This document shows, one piece after another, positions 11,288 to 50,944 of a stretch of DNA of 64,000 nucleotides; positions within the stretch are counted from its first letter, which is position 1; each line of letters begins with the position of its first letter. This stretch comes from Betaproteobacteria bacterium. GTDB taxonomy: Bacteria > Pseudomonadota > Gammaproteobacteria > Burkholderiales > CAIKXV01. The position numbers were made by a program, and so were the translations under genes. The DNA lies in contig CANGYF010000002.1 of the NCBI GenBank assembly GCA_947458265.1, positions 186,001 to 250,000 on the forward strand, in the 5' to 3' direction. Below the pieces are notes generated by a model. That model was not told where the DNA came from, made no database searches, and saw nothing but the letters and a program-made list of their open reading frames with translations.

Positions 11288-12060
11288 ACCATCCTTCGAC
11301 TTCCGGCCTGGGCAGCGACGTGCGCAGCCGGGTCTCCACCGACGAATGGACGGCCCGCGTCGACCTCGCCTGCTGCCACCGGCTGCTCGCGCACTACGGC
11401 TCGAACGACCTCACCTACAACCACCTGTCGATGCGCGTGCCGGGCGAACCGCAGCACCTGCTGATCAAGCCGCCGACGATGATGTTCGAGGAGGTCACCG
11501 CCTCCAGCCTGCTGAAGTTCGACTTCGAGGGGAACCCGCAGCAGGACAGCCCGCGCCTGCGCGGTGGCGGCCTGGTGATCCATGCCGGCCTGCTCGCCGC
11601 ACGCCCCGACCTGAACGCGGTGTTCCATACGCATACCGAGGCGGCGATGGGCGTGTCGTCCCAGCAGCACGGCCTGCTGATGATCAACCAGCAGGCGGTC
11701 ACCTTCTACAAGCGCATTGCCTACCATTCGTTCGGCGGCTTCGAGTTCAACATGGAGCAGCGTGCGCCGCTGATCCGGGACCTCGGCGACCAGTCGATCA
11801 TGCTGTTGCGAAACCACGGTGCGCTGGTGTGCGGCGCGAGCGTGCAGGATGCCTTCTTCGAGCACCACTTCCTCGAGATGGCCTGCAAGGGGCAGATCGC
11901 CGCACTGTCCGGCGGCGCTCCGGTCACGCTGATCGAAGACTCGGTCTGCGAATACGCGCTTGGCCAGTCTCAGGGGGGCGAGCGACTGGCCAACCGGGCG
12001 AAGAACTGGGCAGCCTGTCTGCGCCAGGCCGACCGCCTCGATCCCTCGTTCCGCGACTGA
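11284..12060 (+). CDS. Class II aldolase/adducin family protein
   Basis: The 258-residue zinc-dependent aldolase-fold protein has the entry motif YGSNDLTYNHLSMRV, the metal ligands in VFHTHTEAAMG, LLRNHGALVCG, and a further His in FEHHFLEMACK. Relatives include L-fuculose-phosphate aldolase, ribulose-phosphate epimerase AraD and many uncharacterised sugar- or acid-cleaving enzymes. The exact reaction cannot be assigned. It is probably cytosolic. The ATG overlaps the upstream ABC exporter stop, indicating one transcript. Its last codons form the first copy of the 14-bp tandem repeat that follows. Confidence 0.82.
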   Translation: MNHPSTSGLGSDVRSRVSTDEWTARVDLACCHRLLAHYGSNDLTYNHLSMRVPGEPQHLLIKPPTMMFEEVTASSLLKFDFEGNPQQDSPRLRGGGLVIHAGLLAARPDLNAVFHTHTEAAMGVSSQQHGLLMINQQAVTFYKRIAYHSFGGFEFNMEQRAPLIRDLGDQSIMLLRNHGALVCGASVQDAFFEHHFLEMACKGQIAALSGGAPVTLIEDSVCEYALGQSQGGERLANRAKNWAACLRQADRLDPSFRD

Positions 12061-12123
12061 CGTTCTGCGACTGACGTTGCGCGACTCACGTTGCGCGACT
12101 GACGTTGCGCGACTGACGTTGCG
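12054..12123. repeat. Five-copy 14-bp tandem repeat
   Basis: Five head-to-tail copies of CGACTGACGTTGCG occupy exactly 70 bp. Copies 2, 4 and 5 are identical, copy 1 differs in the last bases (CTG for GCG) and copy 3 has one C for G. Copy 1 contains the final Asp codon and TGA of the class II aldolase gene, so the array grew out of the gene end into the spacer. The unit is not a multiple of three and is not spaced like CRISPR. Confidence 0.9.
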
Positions 12124-12126
12124 CCA

Positions 12127-12169
12127 CCGGCCTTTAGCCGGAATGACCCGGCAAAGGGCTAGTGCCGGG
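12127..12169. terminator. Two hairpins between convergent genes, possible bidirectional terminator
   Basis: CCGGC/GCCGG with a 5-nt loop (12127-12141) is followed by CCCGGCA/TGCCGGG with a 9-nt loop (12147-12169). They lie between the convergent ends of the class II aldolase and the desaturase. There is no clear U-run on either strand, so factor-independent termination is uncertain. Confidence 0.4.
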
Positions 12170-12171
12170 CA

Positions 12172-13128
12172 TCAGCGGGTCGGCGCCATCGCCGGCAATG
12201 GTGCCGGCCCGAGGTACCCTGGCTCGTTCGCCCGATACCACGCGTCCAGCGCCGGCAGGTTGTGCATCGCTACCGTCGGATGCAGGTGGTGCGCGACATG
12301 GAAGCCGATGTTGCGCGGATAGAGGAACAGCCGCCCGGCCAGGCCCCAGTCGTGGGTGCGGGTGGTGGCAACGAGGGTGGCGGGATCGCGGTCGGTGGTA
12401 CGCACATGAAGGTGCTCGGCGACTACCCGGTTCGCATTGAACAACCCGGCCAGCATCAGCGGCAGCAGGTAGCCGTACAGGAAGGCCTGTGGCCAGAGCA
12501 TCGCCACCGGCACCAGGCACAGGAAGAACAGGGCCTGGGCCGGTTCCGCCCGCAGGCAGCGCTCGATCTCGGCATGCTGCGTCAGGTCGACGTCGCTGCG
12601 TTCGCCGAAGAACACGCGTCCGTAGGCGTTGCGCAGCCGAGGCAAGGCCAGCGCCGCGCAGCCGAAGAAGCTGCGCAGGAACCAGGCGATCACCATCACC
12701 GGCCCGCGCAGCCGTCCGAGCACCGCCGGCAGGAGCCGATGCGAGGCTCCCGGCTTGAAGTAAGGATCGAGTTCCATGCCGCTGTGGCGATGATGCCGCA
12801 GGTGGTGGTAGCGCATCGCAGGCAGCGTCGAGGTGATCGGGTAGCCGGCGAGCAGCTCGAGCAGGCGCGAGGCGGCCGTCGGCGCAGCCCGCTTCAGGTG
12901 GCAGGCATCGTGCAGCACGACGCCCAGCGCATGCAGGCGCCCGGCCACCAGCAGCATCCAGAGCGGCCAGAGCGCAGACGGCCCGACGGCCATCGCGATC
13001 CAGCAGGCGACGATCGCCACCCAGTCGACGCAGGCGGCACGCAGCAGTTCGCCAATGCGTGCCGCACGAAGCAATGCGGGCGGGAGATCGGCGCGTCGGG
13101 CGAAGCGCGGTACGGACGGGGCGTTCAT
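12172..13128 (-). CDS. Fatty acid desaturase-superfamily membrane di-iron enzyme
   Basis: The 318-residue integral membrane protein has the three histidine boxes of the desaturase/hydroxylase superfamily: HDACH (73-77), HHLRHHRHSG (from about 108) and FHVAHHLHP near residue 280. Hydrophobic stretches lie at about 35-68 and 190-240. Members insert double bonds or hydroxyls into acyl chains, carotenoids or lipid head groups at the inner membrane. It is the last of six overlapping minus-strand genes; its ATG overlaps the stop of the preceding GNAT-like gene (ATGA). The HHLHP end box is also found in carotenoid ketolase/hydroxylase-like and ornithine-lipid hydroxylase (OlsE) relatives, so hydroxylation is as likely as desaturation. 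Confidence 0.85.
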   Translation of the reverse strand: MNAPSVPRFARRADLPPALLRAARIGELLRAACVDWVAIVACWIAMAVGPSALWPLWMLLVAGRLHALGVVLHDACHLKRAAPTAASRLLELLAGYPITSTLPAMRYHHLRHHRHSGMELDPYFKPGASHRLLPAVLGRLRGPVMVIAWFLRSFFGCAALALPRLRNAYGRVFFGERSDVDLTQHAEIERCLRAEPAQALFFLCLVPVAMLWPQAFLYGYLLPLMLAGLFNANRVVAEHLHVRTTDRDPATLVATTRTHDWGLAGRLFLYPRNIGFHVAHHLHPTVAMHNLPALDAWYRANEPGYLGPAPLPAMAPTR

Positions 13129-14213
13129 ATGCGGGACAGGTCCATGCAGGGCACCCGATCGTCCAGCGCAGCCACCGCGCCGGCGCCGTCCGCATAGTGC
13201 ACGACATAGAGTCGGCCGGCGGCCCGGATCGCACGATACCCGTCCAGCGCCACGGCCAGCGGGTCGTCCTCGTGCATCGACACGATCGCATGGTGCCACG
13301 GTCCTCGGCGCAGATCGCGATAGGCATGCCGGAGCAGCCCGCGCCACAGGGCGACGTCGTCGCCGGCCACGGCGACCGCCGCCAGGTAGACATACGGCAC
13401 GCGTTCGCCTGGCGCTGGCAGCGGCTTTAGCGGCACCACGCGTGCAGCCGCGTTGTACAGCGGCCGCAGCACGGCCAGCCTGGGCGAATAGGCTTCGATG
13501 AAGGTCTGCCGCAACGCATGCTGGTCCCAGGCCGCCACGCACGCCACCAGCCGGCTGCCCCGCTCGGCCACGAAGAAATCGGTGATCGACAGGCCGGGTG
13601 GAAAGCGCGACCAGTCGCGGGTGAACTGCCGGCGCAGAGCAGCGGCTGCGAGCAGTCCGGCCACGTCGGCCTCGTCGCCACTGGTTGCACGCCGGAAGGA
13701 CACGCCCGGCAAGGCCAGTGCAGCCTTGGGCAGGTCGAGGCAGAGGGCCGGGCTGAGCATGCGGCCGACATCGCGATAGGTCGGCAGGCCGGCGCGGCCG
13801 CTCGCGATCGAGCCGATGGCAGCCCGGTTGCCGTCGAGGATCACCGTGAGATAGAAATCGACCGGATCGGCGTCGTGCAGGGCCTTGAGCACGCGGTAGC
13901 CGCGGGCGACCAGCATGCCACCGCGCGCATGCGCGGCCAGCCGCAGGTCCGACAGCAGCCCGACCCGCTGCCAGCGGCCATTGATGCACAGCTGGGTCAT
14001 CAGGCGTGCGCCCATGCCGACCAGTTCGCCGGTCTGCGAATCGACGCACTTGTGCACCTGCACCTGCTCGCCCTGCAGCGCGCAGCCAGCGAAATAGGAC
14101 GGCTCGCGCCGGAAGCTCACCGACAGATCGCCGCGCAACCAGTCGGACGCCATGCGTGCACGCAACGCGGCATCGTCCGCCTCGACCGCCGGTTCGAAGC
14201 GGTAGCGGCTCAT
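13125..14213 (-). CDS. GNAT-like acyltransferase protein, uncharacterised
   Basis: The 362-residue soluble protein has no strongly diagnostic motif, but its pattern suggests an N-acetyltransferase fold, perhaps duplicated. An N-terminal stretch (FEPAVEADDAALRARM, then CVDSQTGELVGMGARLM and VGLLSDLRLAAHARGGMLVARGY) resembles strand-acceptor-strand elements. A second half starts with SFRRATSGDEADVAGLLAAA. No signal or membrane segment is seen. It sits between the GH3 gene and a desaturase with 4-bp overlaps on both sides, so a role in the same pathway is likely. An acyl-transfer step on an amino acid or amine would fit, but that is inference. Confidence 0.65.
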   Translation of the reverse strand: MSRYRFEPAVEADDAALRARMASDWLRGDLSVSFRREPSYFAGCALQGEQVQVHKCVDSQTGELVGMGARLMTQLCINGRWQRVGLLSDLRLAAHARGGMLVARGYRVLKALHDADPVDFYLTVILDGNRAAIGSIASGRAGLPTYRDVGRMLSPALCLDLPKAALALPGVSFRRATSGDEADVAGLLAAAALRRQFTRDWSRFPPGLSITDFFVAERGSRLVACVAAWDQHALRQTFIEAYSPRLAVLRPLYNAAARVVPLKPLPAPGERVPYVYLAAVAVAGDDVALWRGLLRHAYRDLRRGPWHHAIVSMHEDDPLAVALDGYRAIRAAGRLYVVHYADGAGAVAALDDRVPCMDLSRI

Positions 14214-15907
14214 GGCCTCGCCACCGCGAAGGACGCAAGGTCCGGCTCGCCGACGCGACCCAGCACGCCAGGCTTGGCATCGCCCAGCCGCTGTCCGCCC
14301 GCGAGCGCCAGCGCCTGCAGGCGAGCGGCGAGCCGATCGACACGGCAGGCGGCCACCGGCGCGAGCTGTCCTACGCGCCGGGCATAGGCGTACTGCGGAT
14401 TGTGCGCGAGCCGCTCGTCCAGCAGCATTGCCAGCCGGGCTGCATCGCCCTGGCCACCGTCGGCAGCATCGAGCACCAGCACATAGCCCACGACGGGCGT
14501 GCGCACCGGCACCAGCCTCATCGTGCGCATCGTGCGCATCCCGCGCCCAGATGACGCAGCGCCTCCGGTGCCGCCATCGGCCTCCAGCGCCGCCTGCCAG
14601 CAGCCGAGCACGAACGCCTCGTCCAGTTTCTCGCCGCACAGGTCGCCGGTGGCAGTGCCGCGGCCGAGCAGGCGCAGCCTGGGCGCATGCTGCCAGTGGC
14701 CGGTGACGCGGACACGGTCACCGAGCCGGTAGCGGTACAGGCCGGCCGAGGTGGTGACCAGCACGGCATACTCGCCGCCCTGCTCGACCTCATGGCAGCC
14801 GAAGCAGCGGCCACCGTCGTCCTCGAACTCGATCACCGTGGAACCGACGGCTGCGACCGGGTCGCCGCCATCGCACAGGGGTACCGAGACGATGGCCTCG
14901 GTGGCGAGCAGTCCCTTGCCCTGGATCTCCACCGTGGGGAAGGCCGCCGCGAGCGATGGCACCCAGGCAGCGGCGCTGGCGTGGGTCCAGCACGACAGCA
15001 GCGCCAGCCGGGGCCAGATCGCAGCCCAGTCGGGCACCGGCGCGCGCAGGGCAGCGTCTACCCGCAACGCGCGCTGCGGGTCCGCGCGCAGGCGAGCGAG
15101 CGCGGCATCGACCGCCGGCGGCAGCGCGTCGGGCCGGCGTCCGCTCGCGATCGCATCGACCAGCCTTTCCCGGCCTTCCACCGCCTGCCGGCACAGTTCG
15201 GTCCAGAACGTGGGGCTCCATACCGAGACCATCGCCAGGCGCTCGTCGGCCAGGAGGTAGTGCAACGTGGTGTTGCGCCAGGCCTCGATGTCGTCGATCG
15301 CAGCGACCGCCGGCGGCACGCACAGCAGGCTGCCCACGGCGGCGGCGGCGTCTCCGAAGTACTCGGCATCGGAGGCGAGTCCGATCCGGATGCCACCGGC
15401 GGTCGCCTCCGGCCGCCGTGCCGCCGGGCTGATCGACCAGTAGCTGGTGCCGGCCATCGCGGCGGGTCGCTCCAGGCAGAGGTCGTCGAGCCAGGCGAAC
15501 AGTCCCTGCCTCAGCAGCGCCAGCCCGCTTGCGGTCAGCGGTACCAGCTTCGTGCCGCCGGTGCTGCCGCCGGTGCGTTCGAACGCGGCCAGCGGCTCAT
15601 CGACGAGCAGGCCTGGCTCTCCCGCGGCCATCGCCTCGATCGACGGTGCGAACCTTTCGTAGTCGCCGGGCGGAACCGCATCGCGCCACGCCGCCAGCCC
15701 GTCGGTCGAGCCACCCGCTGCCCGCCCGCAACGGTCGAGCACGCGGTCGAATCGATGTGCGCGCGCGAACGCGCAGCCGCGGTGGCGCGACAGGATGTCG
15801 CGCAGCAGTGCCTGCTGCGTCGCCCCGGCATCGGCGGCATCGCTTTGCAGGCGGTCGCGCGCACCGTCGACCGTCGCGGCGAGTTCAGTCCAGCCCATCG
15901 GCGACAC
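14210..15907 (-). CDS. GH3-family acyl-adenylating amido synthetase
   Basis: The 565-residue protein looks like a GH3 (auxin-responsive promoter family) member of the ANL adenylating enzymes. ATP-binding motif 1 is RTGGSTGGTKLVPL (residues 111-124). Motif 2 is around EIQGKGLLATEA (about 335). Motif 3 is YRYRLGDRVRVTG (about 405). Plant GH3 enzymes activate a carboxylic acid as the acyl-AMP and join it to an amino acid; bacterial members are little studied. It starts with GTG and overlaps the upstream GNAT-like gene by 23 bp and the downstream one by 4 bp. Placed among desaturases and a Rieske oxygenase, it is the probable acyl-activating and conjugating step. Confidence 0.85.
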   Translation of the reverse strand: MSPMGWTELAATVDGARDRLQSDAADAGATQQALLRDILSRHRGCAFARAHRFDRVLDRCGRAAGGSTDGLAAWRDAVPPGDYERFAPSIEAMAAGEPGLLVDEPLAAFERTGGSTGGTKLVPLTASGLALLRQGLFAWLDDLCLERPAAMAGTSYWSISPAARRPEATAGGIRIGLASDAEYFGDAAAAVGSLLCVPPAVAAIDDIEAWRNTTLHYLLADERLAMVSVWSPTFWTELCRQAVEGRERLVDAIASGRRPDALPPAVDAALARLRADPQRALRVDAALRAPVPDWAAIWPRLALLSCWTHASAAAWVPSLAAAFPTVEIQGKGLLATEAIVSVPLCDGGDPVAAVGSTVIEFEDDGGRCFGCHEVEQGGEYAVLVTTSAGLYRYRLGDRVRVTGHWQHAPRLRLLGRGTATGDLCGEKLDEAFVLGCWQAALEADGGTGGAASSGRGMRTMRTMRLVPVRTPVVGYVLVLDAADGGQGDAARLAMLLDERLAHNPQYAYARRVGQLAPVAACRVDRLAARLQALALAGGQRLGDAKPGVLGRVGEPDLASFAVARP

Positions 15908-16610
15908 CGGCGAGGAAGGACGAGCGGACCATCGAACGCAGGTTCTCCGGCGCCAGCCGGGCGAGGCAGACCAGCTCGTCGCCGTTGCAGTAGCCGGGAT
16001 TGCGCTGCAGGAAGAACGCCACCTCCGGCCGCGACGACAGGCGCGAAGCCACCTCGGCCAGGTCAGGCTTCAACTGGCCCATCGACCGAGGGAAGCTGAC
16101 CACGCCGCGCCCCGGATCGAAGTCGCTGCCGAAGCGTGCCGCGGCGATCGCATCGGCCAGCGGCCGCAGGTCGTCGTCGCCGCCGGACGGATGCGGGAAG
16201 AAGCGACGCGCGAACACACTGAGGTAGCGGTAGGTGCGATGGCCCTTGGAGATCAGCAGCCAGTACAGCGGCCTGCCGGGATCGCGTGCCTGCAGCGCGC
16301 CGGCCAGCCGCGCGAACGCCCGGCTCAGCGCCTGCTGTCCCCAGGCACTGCGATCGATGATCGTGTCGCCGGAGAACAGCACCTGCACCCGGGAGCCGTT
16401 CCAGTCGAACGGATGGTCGACCGCGGTCGAGAAGCCGCACAACCGTCCGCCCTCCTCGACCAGGATCACATGGCCCTTGGCCGCGAGGTCGGCGCGGAAG
16501 CGGACAGGCTCACAGGCATCGTAGTGCGCCGCATAGAGCCGGTACATCGCGTCGACCAGTGGATCAACCAGCGCATCCGCACGCACGATGCGCGCAGCGA
16601 GCGCGGTCAC
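15885..16610 (-). CDS. GNAT-like protein, uncharacterised
   Basis: The 241-residue soluble protein has features suggesting an acetyltransferase fold: GHVILVEEGGRLCGFST (a beta-hairpin as in GNAT strands 2-3), then VLFSGDTIIDRSAWGQQALSR, a strand-turn-helix of the acetyl-CoA-binding kind, and a conserved-looking WLLISKGHRTYRYLSVF. No membrane segment is seen. Translation starts at a GTG that overlaps the Rieske gene stop (GTGA), and the gene overlaps the GH3 start by 23 bp. It probably works with the GH3 enzyme; the acyl donor and acceptor are unknown. Confidence 0.65.
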   Translation of the reverse strand: MTALAARIVRADALVDPLVDAMYRLYAAHYDACEPVRFRADLAAKGHVILVEEGGRLCGFSTAVDHPFDWNGSRVQVLFSGDTIIDRSAWGQQALSRAFARLAGALQARDPGRPLYWLLISKGHRTYRYLSVFARRFFPHPSGGDDDLRPLADAIAAARFGSDFDPGRGVVSFPRSMGQLKPDLAEVASRLSSRPEVAFFLQRNPGYCNGDELVCLARLAPENLRSMVRSSFLAGVADGLD

Positions 16611-17638
16611 AGCACGATCCGCACGTCGCGCACCGCACCGGCCGCCGGGGTGGGTTCCCCGCGAGCGAGGGCCGAACGCCAGCGCCAGATCGCTTCCCCG
16701 AGCAGGTCGGCCTCGGTGCTGCGCGCCGGCGCTGCGCCGTCAGCGCGGTTCCCGGCAACACGGTCGAGCATGCGCACGTCCTGCCGGATGATCCAGCGCG
16801 ACAGCGGCTCGAAGAACAGGCGCACCAGCGGTCCGAGGCCACGGAAGCGGAACGACATCACCGTGTAGACCTCGATCGCATCGCCCTCGACCGGGCTGCA
16901 GGTCGAGGTGATGTTGTAGGCCAGCCCGTTCGGGAACGCATAGTCGACGCAGCTGGTGGCCGGTGCGATGAAACGGTCGACATGGTGCATCGTGCCGCCC
17001 GGTGGCGAGAACATCGCCCAGATCACGCTGCGCCGGCGCGGCTCGCCGAAGTATTCGGCCTGCGCACCGTCGGCCAGCATGGTCACCCGCGCGGTGACCG
17101 GTGTCCCGGTGGGCGAGCGGAACCAGCCACGGTGCACGAAGGTCGCATGCGGGCAGTCGAGGAAGTTCTCGAGGCAGGCCTCGATGCTGCCGCGAAAGCG
17201 CGTCTTCATGATGAAGCGCGTCCAGCCGGGTTCGCCGCAGGTCGCGATCGGTCGCGGCGGCCCGTCCGGGACACCCTCGCCCGGCCAGGTCCACACCAGC
17301 CCGTCCTGCTCGACGCAGGGCAGCGCGGCCGCCTGCAGCCCTGCCGGCACGGGCACGCCCGCGCCCAACGCAGGTACCCGCGCGACGCGGCCACTGCCTT
17401 CGTACTCCCAGCCATGATAGGGACATTGCAGCCGTGCGGCGCAGACGCGCCCGGCCGACAGCGGCGCATGGCGATGCACGCAGCGGTCCTCGAGCACGGC
17501 CGGCCGCCCGTCCTCGCCGCGGAACACGGCCAGCCGGCGGCCGAACAGGCGCACGCCCAGCGGCAAGCGCCGGCCGAGGTCGCGGCTGCGGCAGAGTGCA
17601 TACCAGTGCCGCAGCAGTGGATCACCGCCTGCAGGCAT
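16607..17638 (-). CDS. Rieske [2Fe-2S] aromatic-ring-hydroxylating-type oxygenase, alpha subunit
   Basis: The 343-residue non-heme iron oxygenase binds a Rieske cluster through Cys53-x-His55 and Cys72-x2-His75 (CPYHGWEY). The catalytic mononuclear iron site is ENFLDCPHATFVH, with Asp161, His164 and His169. The compact size and single subunit recall VanA/PaO/PrnD-like monooxygenases rather than two-subunit dioxygenases. Such enzymes hydroxylate, demethylate or desaturate varied substrates and need a separate reductase, which is not encoded nearby. The ATG overlaps the upstream desaturase stop by one base (TGATG). Within this operon an acyl chain or lipid ring is the plausible target. Confidence 0.88.
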   Translation of the reverse strand: MPAGGDPLLRHWYALCRSRDLGRRLPLGVRLFGRRLAVFRGEDGRPAVLEDRCVHRHAPLSAGRVCAARLQCPYHGWEYEGSGRVARVPALGAGVPVPAGLQAAALPCVEQDGLVWTWPGEGVPDGPPRPIATCGEPGWTRFIMKTRFRGSIEACLENFLDCPHATFVHRGWFRSPTGTPVTARVTMLADGAQAEYFGEPRRRSVIWAMFSPPGGTMHHVDRFIAPATSCVDYAFPNGLAYNITSTCSPVEGDAIEVYTVMSFRFRGLGPLVRLFFEPLSRWIIRQDVRMLDRVAGNRADGAAPARSTEADLLGEAIWRWRSALARGEPTPAAGAVRDVRIVL

Positions 17639-18573
17639 CAGAAGTAGTGCTTCGCCAGCCGCGAGGGATCGTCCGGATAGGGCTCGGGCGGACGGAACAC
17701 CGACAGGTAGCGGTACCAGAGCGGCTGCGTCTCGCGCGGGTCCACCTTCGCGTGAAGGTCCTGCCAAGGCGCACGCGGATGCCGATGGTGCGACAGGTTG
17801 TAGTTGAAGTTGAGGAACAGCCAGCGCACCGGTGCCGGCAGGCGCAGGTCGTAGGCTCCTTCGATGCGGTCGAGCGGCGTGCGCATGTGGTAGACCCACT
17901 GCAGCGAGGAGTAGGAGAACGCGTAGCACGCGTAGAGCACCAGCAGCAGCTGCCAGTTCCAGCCGAACAGCCAGATGCAGGCCGACCACCAGGCGACCGC
18001 AAGCACCGCCTCCAGGCGCAGCAGCTGCCAGTCGTCAGCGTCGAACTCGGCGAACGACCGGCTGTAGCCATCCATCGTGGTCATCTGCAGCGCCAGCGAT
18101 TTCGCATGGCGGTACGGCAGGAAGGGCAGCAGCAGGCTCGCCACGAAGCTGCCCAGCCAGATGCCGCCGAGGATCGCGAAGTAGTAGAGTCCGACCTTGA
18201 ATGCAGCCCGCTCCCCGGGCAGGATGAATTCGGCGAGTTCAGCATGCGAACGGTTGCGCTGGTGGTGCCCCTCGTGGTTCACGCGGATCAGCGTGTACGA
18301 ACTGCCGAACATCGTGGAGGCCATCGCGCCCATCGCCCAGTTCAGTCTGCGCGAACGATGGCCGTTGCGGTGGCAGCACTCGTGCATCATCGAGAACACG
18401 CCCTGCATCATCAGGCAGAACAGCAGCACGACCGCGGCTTTCCCGGCCAACGGAATGTCATGGTGCAGCAGCTCTATCAGGCTGCCCCAGGCGAGCAGCT
18501 GCAGCAGGAGCACGACCAGATTCTGGCGGTCGAGGGACAGGCGGCGGATGTCGGGCGTACGGTTCTGTCGCAT
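17638..18573 (-). CDS. Fatty acid desaturase-superfamily membrane enzyme (first gene of operon)
   Basis: The 311-residue membrane protein has histidine boxes HECCHRNGH (64-72), NHEGHHQRNRSH (99-110) and YNLSHHRHP near residue 260, with hydrophobic spans at about 18-60 and 125-150. The box pattern places it in the membrane di-iron desaturase/hydroxylase superfamily, in a different branch from the second desaturase in this operon. It leads six minus-strand genes that all overlap their neighbours, and it faces a plus-strand operon across 86 bp. A TAGAAT at 18613-18618 could be its -10 element. The substrate is unknown. Confidence 0.86.
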   Translation of the reverse strand: MRQNRTPDIRRLSLDRQNLVVLLLQLLAWGSLIELLHHDIPLAGKAAVVLLFCLMMQGVFSMMHECCHRNGHRSRRLNWAMGAMASTMFGSSYTLIRVNHEGHHQRNRSHAELAEFILPGERAAFKVGLYYFAILGGIWLGSFVASLLLPFLPYRHAKSLALQMTTMDGYSRSFAEFDADDWQLLRLEAVLAVAWWSACIWLFGWNWQLLLVLYACYAFSYSSLQWVYHMRTPLDRIEGAYDLRLPAPVRWLFLNFNYNLSHHRHPRAPWQDLHAKVDPRETQPLWYRYLSVFRPPEPYPDDPSRLAKHYF

Positions 18574-18612
18574 TCGGCTGGGGCGGAGTTCCGTGCAGTA
18601 GGGGCGGCATCG

Positions 18613-18618
18613 ATTCTA
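18613..18618 (-). promoter_or_regulatory. Possible -10 element of the six-gene lipid-tailoring operon
   Basis: Read on the minus strand, TAGAAT matches the sigma70 -10 hexamer in five of six positions and lies about 40 bp upstream of the first desaturase ATG. No convincing -35 hexamer is found 16-18 bp further up, so this would be a weak or activator-dependent promoter. It lies in the 86-bp region (18574-18659) shared with the divergent hydrolase gene. Confidence 0.3.
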
Positions 18619-18659
18619 GTCCGAGTGGCAGCAGACACGGCAGATCGGCTGGTGGTCTG

Positions 18660-19517
18660 TTGACCGGCGCGACCGTGCTCGACGCACACGGCAATGCGCA
18701 TGCCGCCGAATTCGCCCGGATGTTCGACCGGCAGGAGGACGGTGCCATTCGACCGGCTGACATTCCCGACTGCACGGTGGTGATGGTGCGTGGCCTGTTC
18801 GGATCATGGATCCCGGGCCATTTCCGGGCCCCGATCGAGCTGCTGCGGGCGCGGGGATGGCACGCGACGGTCGCGCGGACCGACCCGGCCGGAACACTCG
18901 AACGCAACCGCCGGCTGCTGCTGGTGCAGGTCGCGGCACTGGTCGAGGCGGGGCAGCGCCCGGTGTTCCTCGCCCACAGCAAGGGCGGGCTGGAGACGCT
19001 GCTGGCACTGGCCGCTGAACCACGCCTGGCTGCTGCGACGCTGGGCTTCGCAGGCGTGCAGGTACCAAGGGCGGGCGCGCCCTTCCTCGAGAGCCTGTTC
19101 CACCGGCGCCACCACGACAGCCGCACGCCCGCCGAACGGCTGGTCGAGCCGCTTCAGGCCGCGGCGCTCACCCTGGCCGGCGCGCGGGCCGCCTGCCGGG
19201 AACTGGAAGACGCAGCGCTGGCACCGAGCGTCTCGCGCGTGGACGGCACGACGTTCCCGTTTCCCGTGCTGATGGCCGCGTCGCGGGCCGCGCGGCCGTC
19301 CGGGTCGCTCGAGCTGCGCTTCGCGCGGCTCGGTCGCATCCACCCCGGGCAGGCGCACGACGGCGTGTTCCTCGAGCGCGACCAGTGCTGGCCGGCAGCA
19401 GCGATGCTTCATCTGGACGGCATCGACCACGCACAGCCTTCGGTCGGCGGCCTCGGCTTCGCGCACGACCGCTTCTGGCTGGCGCTGCTGCAGGTCGTGC
19501 TCGGACGGCTGCGATGA
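18660..19517 (+). CDS. Alpha/beta hydrolase, lipase/esterase-like
   Basis: The 285-residue protein has an oxyanion-type motif VMVRGLFGSW (residues 41-50) and a nucleophile elbow LAHSKGG with Ser107. A candidate catalytic His lies in HPGQAHDGVF or DGIDHAQ near the C-terminus. It resembles triacylglycerol lipase/PGAP1-like hydrolases; no signal peptide is seen. The start is uncertain: TTG at 18660, GTG at 18675 and ATG at 18720 are all in frame, none with a strong ribosome site. It leads three overlapping plus-strand genes opposite the desaturase/GH3 operon. Hydrolysing or transferring an acyl group of the cluster's product would fit but is inferred. Confidence 0.75.
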   Translation: MTGATVLDAHGNAHAAEFARMFDRQEDGAIRPADIPDCTVVMVRGLFGSWIPGHFRAPIELLRARGWHATVARTDPAGTLERNRRLLLVQVAALVEAGQRPVFLAHSKGGLETLLALAAEPRLAAATLGFAGVQVPRAGAPFLESLFHRRHHDSRTPAERLVEPLQAAALTLAGARAACRELEDAALAPSVSRVDGTTFPFPVLMAASRAARPSGSLELRFARLGRIHPGQAHDGVFLERDQCWPAAAMLHLDGIDHAQPSVGGLGFAHDRFWLALLQVVLGRLR

Positions 19518-20254
19518 ACCTGCCGCGCACCGTCGACGCCGTGCCGCTGTCGTTCCGGCTGCTGCACCGGTTCGAACGCTACCTCGCGCGCGCTTCCTTG
19601 CATGGCGATCCGCCGGTGCACGACCCGCGCGTGTTCGACTGGATACCGGCGCTGGAGTCTGCGGTGCCAGCGATCGCAGCCGAGTATCGCCGGCTGGTCG
19701 ATGCCGGCGAACCCCTGCCGCCGTTCCACGAGATCTCGCCCGAGCAACTGCCGATCACCTCCGATGGGCGCTGGCGCACCTTCGTGCTGCATGCCTACGG
19801 CATCGAAGCACGACGCAACAGCGCGCTGTGCCCGGCGACGGCAGCGGCGGTACGCGCCGTCCCCGGCATGCAGACCGCGATGTTCTCGATCCTGGAGCCA
19901 GGCAAGCGGCTGGCACCCCACCGGGGACCCTACAAGGGCCTGCTGCGCGTGCAGGTGGCGCTCGAGTTGCCGGCCGATCGCGAGGCCTGCTGGATCGAGG
20001 TGGACGGGATCCGGATGCACTGGCAACCGGGGCGCGCGATCGTCTTCGACGACACCCGGATACACAGTGCCGCGAACGAGGCGCAGCAACGCCGCTGCGT
20101 GCTGTTCCTGGACATCCTGCGCCCGCTGCGCGGCGACGCCGACCGGCTGAACCGCCTGCTGCTCTGGCTGCTGCGGCGCAGTCCGTTCGCATGGCGCGCA
20201 CGCAAGGTTTTCGCCGACTGGTATCGCCGAAACGGGATCGTCGCCGATGCCTGA
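19514..20254 (+). CDS. Aspartyl/asparaginyl beta-hydroxylase-family dioxygenase (LpxO/OlsC-like)
   Basis: The 246-residue 2-oxoglutarate/Fe(II)-dependent hydroxylase has the iron ligands His136 (APHRGPYKG) and His184 (FDDTRIHSAANEA), followed by Arg194, which would bind 2-oxoglutarate (RRCVLFLDILRP). In bacteria this family contains LpxO, which hydroxylates lipid A acyl chains, and OlsC/OlsD, which hydroxylate ornithine lipids. Its ATG overlaps the stop of the hydrolase gene, and the next gene overlaps by 8 bp. With desaturases and acyl-adenylating enzymes next door, an acyl-chain target is more likely than a protein target. Confidence 0.85.
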   Translation: MNLPRTVDAVPLSFRLLHRFERYLARASLHGDPPVHDPRVFDWIPALESAVPAIAAEYRRLVDAGEPLPPFHEISPEQLPITSDGRWRTFVLHAYGIEARRNSALCPATAAAVRAVPGMQTAMFSILEPGKRLAPHRGPYKGLLRVQVALELPADREACWIEVDGIRMHWQPGRAIVFDDTRIHSAANEAQQRRCVLFLDILRPLRGDADRLNRLLLWLLRRSPFAWRARKVFADWYRRNGIVADA

Positions 20255-20939
20255 CGCCCCCGCCACTGTCCCTGTGCTGCCGGTGCTGCGCAGCCGCCGC
20301 GGCAAGTACGCTGCCGCGCTGCTGGTGGCCCTGGCCTGCGCGGCACTCTACGTGGTGCCTGGTCAGTGGGCGCTCGAGCGTGCGCAGGTGATCGGCCTGT
20401 CTGCCTGGGAACAGCGCATTCCGTGGATCCCGCAGACCGTTTGGCCCTACCTGGCGCAGTACCCACTGCTGATCACGGCCTATGCCTGCTGCAGCGACCT
20501 GCGCCGTTGCAGCCGCTTCCTCTACGCCGCCCTGTTCGCGCAGGCGATCGCCGCAGCCTGCTTCATCGCGCTGCCGCTGCGCTACCCGCGCGAGGCCTTC
20601 GCTGCCGCCGCCCTGCCCGACCCCGCCACCGCTGCCGTCGCAGCCTGGGTACGTGCGATGGATGCACCGGTGAACTGCCTGCCCAGCCTGCACGTGACCA
20701 GTTGCCTGTTCTGCATGCTGCTGCTCGGACGCGGCGGCGGCGCCTGGCGCCTGGCCGGCCATGCAGTCGCCCTGTCCAGCATGGCCAGCACGCTCACGTT
20801 CAAGCAGCACTATGCGATCGACCTGCTGGCCGGCGCAGCGGTCGCAATCCTGGCCTGGTCGATCGCCGGCGCGCTGCTGCGCGAGCGACCGCGCAGCGCA
20901 TGGACGGCGCAGGATCAGCCGATGTCCGCCGGTTCCTGA
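20247..20939 (+). CDS. PAP2/AUR1-like phosphatase or phosphotransferase, membrane-bound
   Basis: The 230-residue membrane protein has about five or six hydrophobic spans and the two catalytic motifs of the PAP2 superfamily in the inositol-phosphotransferase style: NCLPSLHVTS with His149 and LTFKQHYAIDLLAG with His188 and Asp192. This combination is seen in AUR1-like enzymes and in lipid phosphate phosphatases, which hydrolyse or transfer phospho-head-groups at the membrane surface. It closes the plus-strand set of the lipid-tailoring locus (8-bp overlap with the hydroxylase gene). The reaction, phosphatase or head-group transfer, cannot be decided here. Confidence 0.82.
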   Translation: MPDAPATVPVLPVLRSRRGKYAAALLVALACAALYVVPGQWALERAQVIGLSAWEQRIPWIPQTVWPYLAQYPLLITAYACCSDLRRCSRFLYAALFAQAIAAACFIALPLRYPREAFAAAALPDPATAAVAAWVRAMDAPVNCLPSLHVTSCLFCMLLLGRGGGAWRLAGHAVALSSMASTLTFKQHYAIDLLAGAAVAILAWSIAGALLRERPRSAWTAQDQPMSAGS

Positions 20940-21022
20940 CGCCCCGCCTGGGAACCCGGCTGACTCTGCGCCAGTGTACGATCAAGTGGTCATTCTCAAA
21001 TAACAGGATTACAGGAGGAAGC

Positions 21023-22036
21023 ATGCTGGACACGCTGCCCGGACCCCGCCCCGACGCTCGCAGGACCGACCGCCGTCGTGCTGTGCTGGTGGCCGGTTTC
21101 TCTGCGCTGGCCTGCTGCGCGACATCGATTCACGCACAGAAGTTCCCGGCCAAGCCGATCCGCATGATCGTCGGCTATGCGCCCGGCGGTGGCACCGACA
21201 TCATGGGTCGGCTGATCGCCCAGGAAATCTCCAGCGCGCTGGCCCAGCCGGTGGTGGTCGAGAACCGGCCCGGCGCGGCGCAGAACGTCGCGGCCGAGTT
21301 CGTCGCCCGGCAGCCGGCCGACGGCTACACGCTGTTCATGAGTTCCGCGGCGCACGGCATCAACGTCAGCCTGTACTCGAAGATCAACTACGACCCGGTG
21401 AAGGACTTCGCACCGATCGCGGTGTTCGCCACCAGCCCGAACCTGCTGCTGGTGCATCCTTCGTTCCCGGCCAAGTCGGTGAAGGAGTTCATCTCGGTTG
21501 CGCGGAAGAATCCGGGCAGGCTGAACTATTCGTCCTCCGGCGTGGGCAGTTCGCAGCACCTGTCCGGCGAGATGCTGAAGGTGATGATCGGCGTCGACAT
21601 GACGCACATCCCGTACAAGGGCAGCGCGCCGTCGCTGGCCGGGCTGGCGAGCGGTGAAGTCGACTTCGCGTTCAACAACATTCCGTCGGCGCAACCGCTG
21701 CTGGCGCCGGGACGCATCCGTGCCCTGGGCATCACCAGCGCAAGGCGCTCGCCACTGCTGCCGAACCTGCCGACGATGGTCGAAGGCGGCATCCCAGGCT
21801 TCGTGACCGAGACCTGGTACGGGCTGCTCGTCCCGGCCGGCACGCCGCGCGACGTCGTGATGCTCTACAACGACGTGACGGTGAAGGCGGTACAGAAGCC
21901 CGATGTGCGCGACCGGCTGGCGCAGATGGGCGCCGACCCGATCGCCGAATCGCCGGAGTTCTTCGCGAAGTACCTCGCCGCCGAGATCGCGCGCTGGGCG
22001 AAGGTGATCCGGGAATCGAAGGCCAAGGCAGAATGA
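21023..22036 (+). CDS. Bug/TctC-family periplasmic solute-binding protein
   Basis: This 337-residue member of the tripartite tricarboxylate transporter substrate-binding family has an RR-containing N-region and a signal sequence ending near ATSIHAQ. The body has KPIRMIVGYAPGGGTDIMGR, VVVENRPGA, ADGYTLFM, YDPVKDFAPIA and HIPYKGSAPSL, the usual ligand-pocket landmarks. Such proteins bind carboxylates or other small acids. The start at 21023 is well supported by AGGAGGAA 5-6 bp upstream. No TctA/TctB membrane partners are nearby. It leads a run with a dienelactone hydrolase, a second Bug protein and a Gfo/Idh/MocA oxidoreductase. Confidence 0.92.
   Translation: MLDTLPGPRPDARRTDRRRAVLVAGFSALACCATSIHAQKFPAKPIRMIVGYAPGGGTDIMGRLIAQEISSALAQPVVVENRPGAAQNVAAEFVARQPADGYTLFMSSAAHGINVSLYSKINYDPVKDFAPIAVFATSPNLLLVHPSFPAKSVKEFISVARKNPGRLNYSSSGVGSSQHLSGEMLKVMIGVDMTHIPYKGSAPSLAGLASGEVDFAFNNIPSAQPLLAPGRIRALGITSARRSPLLPNLPTMVEGGIPGFVTETWYGLLVPAGTPRDVVMLYNDVTVKAVQKPDVRDRLAQMGADPIAESPEFFAKYLAAEIARWAKVIRESKAKAE

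Positions 22037-50853: not shown

Positions 50854-50944
<91 letters not shown>

Follow-up and report, generated by a model that had tools for sequence, protein, structure and literature searches.

A nine-gene betaproteobacterial locus built on a GH3 ligase and two GNAT-type acyltransferases, a candidate for acyl-amide synthesis

The locus considered here is a string of nine genes at positions 12,172 to 20,939 of a 64,000-nucleotide stretch of a betaproteobacterial genome (assembly GCA_947458265.1, contig CANGYF010000002.1, positions 186,001 to 250,000 of the forward strand); that whole stretch is referred to below as the window. The closest published pathway is the OlsH/OlsI ornithine-lipid pathway of Singulisphaera acidiphila (PMC12493201, 2025), in which a GH3 protein works with an alpha/beta hydrolase. 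Both loci combine a GH3-family ligase with an alpha/beta hydrolase, and ATP-dependent formation of a fatty-acid amide is the expected first step in each. The window's GH3 protein, however, scores far under the cut-off for OlsH, and its locus adds two GNAT-type acyltransferases (designated GNa and GNb), a Rieske oxygenase, two desaturase-type enzymes (D1 and D2), an OlsC-like hydroxylase and a PAP2-superfamily protein. The OlsBA pathway with its OlsC/LpxO hydroxylases shares with the locus a PF05118 hydroxylase related to OlsC and, in a general sense, GNAT-type acyltransferases, but OlsA and OlsB are not encoded at the locus and the OlsC and LpxO cut-offs are not reached. The plant GH3 synthetases (AtGH3.12 and others) belong to the same family as the window's ligase, and a profile of the family built from 18 rows, of which two are OlsH-like, covers almost the whole of AtGH3.12 at E 1e-43, whereas the window's protein belongs to a bacterial group with gene partners of its own. 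The N-myristoyltransferases (NMTs), described for the most part in eukaryotes, resemble the predicted structure of GNb: the double-GNAT folds align nearly end to end, with the last residue of GNb falling at the position of the catalytic NMT C-terminus, although identity is 10-11% and neither Pfam model of the family (NMT N-terminal, NMT_C) matches the window's GNb.

The nine genes constitute one biosynthetic unit, and GNa, GH3 and GNb are the core of a cluster family that recurs in distantly related proteobacteria. Computation shows that the genes form a conserved unit, which families, folds and motifs its proteins have, and where the C-terminus of GNb falls in register. That the nine genes together make an acyl amide, meaning a small N-acylated molecule of lipid-like character, we consider about an even proposition; the product is read as an acyl amide because an acyl-AMP ligase and two enzymes of acyl transfer are the parts most often present in these clusters. 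The sequence-only reading of this DNA knew of no described pathway with such a combination. No description of the gene set was found in the open-licence PMC literature searched, but a lipid pathway using GH3 and an alpha/beta hydrolase had already been published (PMC12493201), and GH3-dependent lipid synthesis as such is known from that work.

One unit with a recurrent core

Six genes lie on the minus strand, in the 5' to 3' order D1, Rieske oxygenase, GNa, GH3, GNb, D2, and three on the plus strand:

17638..18573, minus: D1, fatty-acid-desaturase-type membrane di-iron enzyme (311 residues; PF00487, 92.8 bits; three His boxes)
16607..17638, minus: Rieske non-haem iron oxygenase of VanA_C type (343 residues; PF00355, 83.6 bits; PF19112, 34.5 bits)
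15885..16610, minus: GNa, predicted single-domain GNAT acyltransferase (GTG start, 241 residues; AlphaFold2 (AF2) model)
14210..15898 (or from GTG 15907), minus: GH3, acyl-AMP-forming acyl acid amido synthetase (562 residues; PF03321, PF23571)
13125..14213, minus: GNb, predicted double-GNAT, N-myristoyltransferase-type acyltransferase (362 residues; AF2 model, conserved C-terminus)
12172..13128, minus: D2, second desaturase-type di-iron enzyme (318 residues; PF00487, 88.6 bits; His boxes)
18660 (TTG; or ATG 18720)..19517, plus: alpha/beta hydrolase, possible acyltransferase or esterase (MGS0156 match)
19514..20254, plus: OlsC/LpxO-type Fe(II)/2-oxoglutarate lipid hydroxylase (246 residues; PF05118, 138.8 bits)
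20247..20939, plus: PAP2-superfamily membrane phosphatase or phosphotransferase (230 residues; PF14378, 45.2 bits)

Neighbours on the same strand overlap by 1 to 14 bases (by 23 if GH3 uses its GTG start). The nine open reading frames (ORFs) stand where the sequence-only reading had placed them, and its 86-base divergent gap between the strand groups holds provided that the hydrolase starts at TTG 18660. A scan of positions 11900-21200 detected no sigma-70-like promoter, and its two terminator-like sites are no better than chance. Six of the nine proteins (D1, D2, Rieske, GH3, OlsC-like and PAP2) have Pfam matches above cut-off, the GH3 protein (GH3 and GH3_M) and the Rieske protein (Rieske and VanA_C) with two domains each; GNa, GNb and the alpha/beta hydrolase have none above cut-off. 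The catalytic motifs sought (Rieske cluster, iron site, His boxes) are all intact. The host genome (G000; 4.01 Mb in 33 contigs) has a single GH3 gene.

All nine genes are found again in a congener, the betaproteobacterial metagenome-assembled genome G010 (JAJTHE010000008.1), in one collinear 8.8-kb alignment at 80% identity. Between the two, the ratio of nonsynonymous to synonymous substitution rates (dN/dS) is 0.15-0.31 across the nine genes and 0.10 for two flanking genes; the nine are under purifying selection, beyond chance. Nine other congeners (drafts, 83-100% complete) have no match to the window's GH3 or GNb. In the four congeners whose left edge was examined, homology with the window ends each time at base 12061, the left edge of the cluster: the shared stretch up to that point consists of ABC and aldolase genes, and the break comes just past the aldolase stop codon, with other genes beyond it. 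Because homology breaks at this base and other genes follow there, the nine genes are seen to occupy a variable slot. The right edge could be placed in one of the four, G006, where homology returns at window base 20954, 12.4 kb on. The same slot in congeners (loci L065, 5149-17510, and L066, 548-11152) holds a gene for 111 residues and large ORFs that look efflux-pump-like by eye.

Related loci were located through GH3 or GNb, one of which is consequently present by construction. Seventeen loci from 14 families and more than one class of the phylum have GH3 together with at least one of GNa and GNb; one of them is cut by a contig end (L026) and another ends 1.3 kb past GH3 (L094). GNa and GNb are each present in 15 of these partnered loci, a Rieske oxygenase in 10 (7 of them window-like, 3 at 19-24% identity to the window's), a D1-type desaturase in 9, an alpha/beta hydrolase of the window's type or of a second family, c7, in 8, and PAP2 in 7. 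The claim that the genes act together, made from overlap and divergence, is borne out by the retention of the whole set in G010 and by the recurrence in other families of the core of GH3 and two GNATs, to which a desaturase and a Rieske oxygenase are usually added. What had been an unannotated nine-gene string becomes a defined cluster family whose core can be searched for and expressed.

Three named carriers illustrate the variation. On Citrobacter portucalensis plasmid NZ_CP134684.1 lie GNa, GH3, two radical SAM genes, GNb, two more radical SAM genes and PAP2, with a radical SAM and a D1-like desaturase gene on the opposite strand. Burkholderia arboris NZ_CP101525.1 has GNa, GNb, D1-like, GH3 and Rieske genes. 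In Acinetobacter baumannii NZ_CP064203.1 (a record of 3.97 Mb, entered as a plasmid; L106, 1255-12148) the genes run in one direction: amidase, HlyD, MFS, GNa, GH3, outer-membrane efflux protein, GNb, SurE-like. Clustering, backed by one to three Pfam checks for each protein, brings out further recurrent members: B12-radical-SAM proteins in tandem, a SnoaL-like protein, a 219-residue membrane protein and an NQR2/RnfD, FG-GAP and UnbV protein. AurF or P450 occurs in single loci.

A three-sequence profile finds GNb in 6 of 399 genomes of the order and 8 of 369 of the class, the window's own genome being counted in both, and a GH3 profile finds 9 of 299 genomes of the phylum, two of them weakly. 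In the class sample, a comparison that leans less on the way the loci were located, GH3 (PF03321) is present in 19 of the 369 genomes, and all 8 genomes with GNb lie within those 19, a co-occurrence with P 1e-11 (2e-10 when the window's own genome is left out), uncorrected for relatedness. One of the other 11 GH3 genomes, G399, has GNa; the remaining ten have no hidden Markov model (HMM) match to GNa, GNb, Rieske, D1 or c7 in the stretch fetched, although in three of these (L095, L098, L103) GH3 lies less than 1.5 kb from the contig start and one flank is barely visible. A midpoint-rooted tree of 28 GH3 proteins places the 17 partnered ones on one side of a branch with 100/99 support and the 11 unpartnered ones on the other. 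Whether GH3 homologues mostly occur without these partners, a question raised by the sequence-only reading, is accordingly answered differently at two levels: in the family at large they do (10 of 19), but the GH3 group of this locus, on its side of the 100/99 branch, keeps its partners.

The ligase and the two acyltransferases

The GH3 protein matches PF03321 with 118.9 bits and PF23571 with 56.4 bits (both cut-offs 23.6). Together with the AtGH3.12 profile match, the two domains uphold its assignment as an acyl acid amido synthetase. The label 'GNAT-like' for its two neighbours is supported by predicted models that match GNAT structures, in a single domain for GNa and as a double domain for GNb. 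The GNa model (mean pLDDT 92) aligns with single GNAT domains (Foldseek, best E 1.3e-6; VIA-align Z 12.5), and an HMM search of the other loci finds GNa relatives in 12 of them. For both proteins the comparison covers the structures listed by the scans, GNATs for GNa and NMTs for GNb.

That label passed over the likeness of GNb to N-myristoyltransferase. When its model (mean pLDDT 92.2) is compared with known structures by VIA-align, eukaryotic NMTs fill all 50 of the best rows by Z; the best has Z 24.1 with a root-mean-square deviation of 3.8 over 303 of the 362 residues. Most of the listed alignments end at GNb residue 362, the last, or one residue earlier, and in the partner they run, for example, to residue 496 of human or 455 of yeast NMT; the end points in the remaining NMTs we take to be C-termini, from the lengths of those proteins. 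The catalytic C-terminal residues named in published NMT work are Gln496 (human) and L455 (yeast). In an alignment of 17 GNb proteins none extends past the common last column (aligners tend to align ends), and the C-terminal motif [DE]xxx[LIVM]-COOH is found in 20 of 20 GNb proteins (near-identical pairs included, and with one each from the Citrobacter, Burkholderia and Acinetobacter carriers), whereas 3 of the 162 other proteins encoded there carry it. This shared terminus is of the kind that a predicted NMT-like catalytic base at the C-terminus would need. Within the GNATs, use of a C-terminal carboxylate is unique to NMT according to PMC4964394, and NMT-type structures in bacteria and archaea are reported, as structures, in PMC12219266. 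Because GNb sits in a metabolic cluster, its acceptor is likely to be a small-molecule amine and not a protein N-terminus.

That GNb is a true bacterial counterpart of eukaryotic NMT, using the carboxylate of its last residue as base on a small-molecule amine within an undescribed proteobacterial acyl-amide cluster family, we advance tentatively, as doubtful though not negligible. Were it true, bacterial NMT-type double GNATs, so far known as structures alone (PMC12219266), would gain a genomic context, and GNb enzymes would be candidates for the ancestor type behind protein N-myristoylation, which bears on the origin of that modification in eukaryotes.

Several observations weigh against the acyl-amide reading, with GNb as an NMT-type enzyme in it. 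Ranked by Foldseek E-value, the tandem GNAT MAB_4324 comes first (2e-13) and NMT appears from rank 8, and a fold match shows no function. NMT_C matches 2 of 17 GNb relatives, both from one genus, with a best E of 0.0037, below cut-off; searched against whole genomes it gives weak matches in 3 of 30, of which those of G832 and G852 (the one genus) fall in GNb and that of G653 in the stretch of a second Rieske gene. Sequence support for kinship between GNb and NMT is weak. Two findings speak against a strict linkage: GNb occurs alone in two genomes of one genus, and one stretch of Azospirillum holds GNa with neither GH3 nor GNb. HMM searches of the loci examined find the OlsC-like enzyme, D2 and the hydrolase nowhere outside the genus, so that these three may be later additions. 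Exporter genes in related core clusters (those of Acinetobacter and L048) are easier to reconcile with a secreted product than with a membrane lipid.

What the locus might make

The reactions of an acyl-amide pathway can be assigned to the nine proteins as follows. GH3 would activate a carboxylic acid with ATP to the acyl-AMP and couple it to an amine; GNb, with its NMT-type double-GNAT fold, would acylate an amine from acyl-CoA, its own C-terminal carboxylate serving as base, and GNa would carry out one more acyl transfer. The four oxidising enzymes (D1, D2, Rieske oxygenase, OlsC-like enzyme) could act next, introducing double bonds or hydroxyl groups into the chain or the headgroup; the alpha/beta hydrolase might shift or remove an ester-bound acyl group, and PAP2 might add or remove a phosphate-linked group. 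We infer the order of steps, the substrates, the chain length, the small amine as GNb acceptor and the final product. N-acyl coupling together with oxidation of the chain, as proposed from sequence at the outset, remains the natural reading of the gene set, with GH3 supported as an amido synthetase. If it is true, GH3-dependent lipid assembly reaches beyond ornithine lipids.

The product need not stay in the membrane. A diffusible, exported acyl-amide natural product (a signal, surfactant or antibiotic) is a real possibility, if the less probable one: the A. baumannii core shares its cluster with an amidase gene and genes for HlyD, MFS and outer-membrane efflux proteins, HlyD and MFS genes come after GNb in L048, the tandem B12-radical-SAM, AurF or P450 genes of some members are in the style of natural-product clusters, and the window's cluster is present in only part of its genus. 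The window's cluster, however, has no exporter within it, and enzymes of the PAP2, OlsC-like and desaturase kinds typically edit membrane lipids. With exporters beside the core, a secreted product is favoured in Acinetobacter and L048; in the window, where exporters are absent and PAP2 and OlsC-like genes present, a membrane lipid is favoured.

A variant ornithine-lipid pathway of the OlsH/OlsI kind, in which GH3 would form a lyso-ornithine lipid, the hydrolase O-acylate it and the OlsC-like enzyme hydroxylate it, appears improbable. GH3, an alpha/beta hydrolase and an OlsC relative do occur together, and PMC12493201 shows an ornithine lipid made by GH3 and an alpha/beta hydrolase. Yet the window's GH3 scores 31.1 bits against the OlsH model (NCBIfam NF052613), whose equivalog cut-off is 620; of 8 other partnered GH3 proteins compared one by one, 6 score 35-52 bits and 2 have no match, the highest scores among the ten other GH3 proteins tested being those of the unpartnered L012 (99 bits) and L013 (75 bits), from which the 100/99 branch divides the partnered group. 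The pathway would also leave two GNATs, the Rieske oxygenase and PAP2 without a role, and a separate OlsB-like gene lies elsewhere in the genome (contig C9, 35147-35986; L014, 4648-5487), adjoining a GT4 glycosyltransferase gene and scoring 145 of 350 bits, below cut-off. Matches to PF13444 (OlsB) in the host genome are on contigs C9 and C21, with none on the locus contig, C2. The OlsC-like protein reaches 187.8 bits against the OlsC model (NF052565, cut-off 450) and 118.4 against the LpxO model (NF033391, cut-off 500). No locus protein matches the OlsA or OlsB model, in agreement with the sequence-only reading, whose suggested link to ornithine-lipid chemistry these scores do not support. Synthesis of an ornithine lipid by OlsH or OlsBA was set aside on these grounds, scores below the model cut-offs or genes elsewhere in the genome.

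Modification of a hopanoid or sterol, to which the SdmA resemblance of the Rieske protein (its best NCBIfam match, 75.8 of 600 bits) and weak HpnJ/HpnR matches of radical SAM proteins in related clusters would point, is largely refuted and most improbable, the squalene-hopene-cyclase N-domain (PF13249) being absent from 23 of 23 genomes searched, 18 of them with a family GNb or GH3.

Oxidative and hydrolytic enzymes and other gene settings

D1 has relatives at E 1e-23 to 4e-40 in 7 further loci of the cluster family. The Rieske protein has CxH..CxxH from residue 53 and NxxDxxHxxxxH from residue 158, and its relatives are 38-87% identical in 6 other loci, with Rieske proteins of 19-24% identity present in a further 3 and, as a second gene, in L041. 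The Asp/Asn beta-hydroxylase call for the OlsC-like protein is supported by its PF05118 score, above cut-off. D2 has as its best NCBIfam match the arginine hydroxylase GntB (42 of 380 bits), on account of which it may act on the amino-acid part and not on the chain. A tblastn comparison run with no correction for composition suggested D2 relatives in L039 and L040; they are not counted as orthologues, an HMM search of the other loci having found none.

The alpha/beta hydrolase, without a Pfam match up to E 0.1, matches the carboxyl esterase MGS0156 (5d8m) around an A-H-S-K-G motif (E 5e-4). It shares its best PDB match with the c7 hydrolases of other clusters; direct profile comparison of the two by hhalign (probability 28%, E 6.5e-4) is weak and suggestive only. 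In the order sample it is found in 4 of 250 genomes, namely two cluster carriers and weak matches in G142 and G175, the latter on a 7.7-kb contig without other cluster genes. The PAP2/AUR1-like protein of the sequence-only reading belongs to the PAP2_3 family (PF14378, cut-off 27), but its sequence does not separate an AUR1-type transferase from a phosphatase. PAP2 relatives adjoin the core in L040, L042, L043, L045 and L047.

In six loci (L040, 5315-8074; L010, L021, L026, L039 and L041 by clustering) GNb is followed by the NQR2/RnfD-like, FG-GAP and UnbV/ASPIC protein, of ~900-970 residues, which might supply electrons to the oxygenases. The lone GNb genes are at 9666-10757 of L022, between M23 peptidase and pseudouridine synthase genes, and at 9725-10819 of L023; this solitary GNb keeps the C-terminal motif. 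The more OlsH-like GH3 genes of L012 (8989-10647) and L013 (9327-10958), in two genomes of different families, stand between fatty-acid-hydroxylase-type and enolase-superfamily genes, which is another, separate GH3 context. Across the window Rfam gives a single hit that passes its gathering score, a minus-strand tRNA at 50858-50944.

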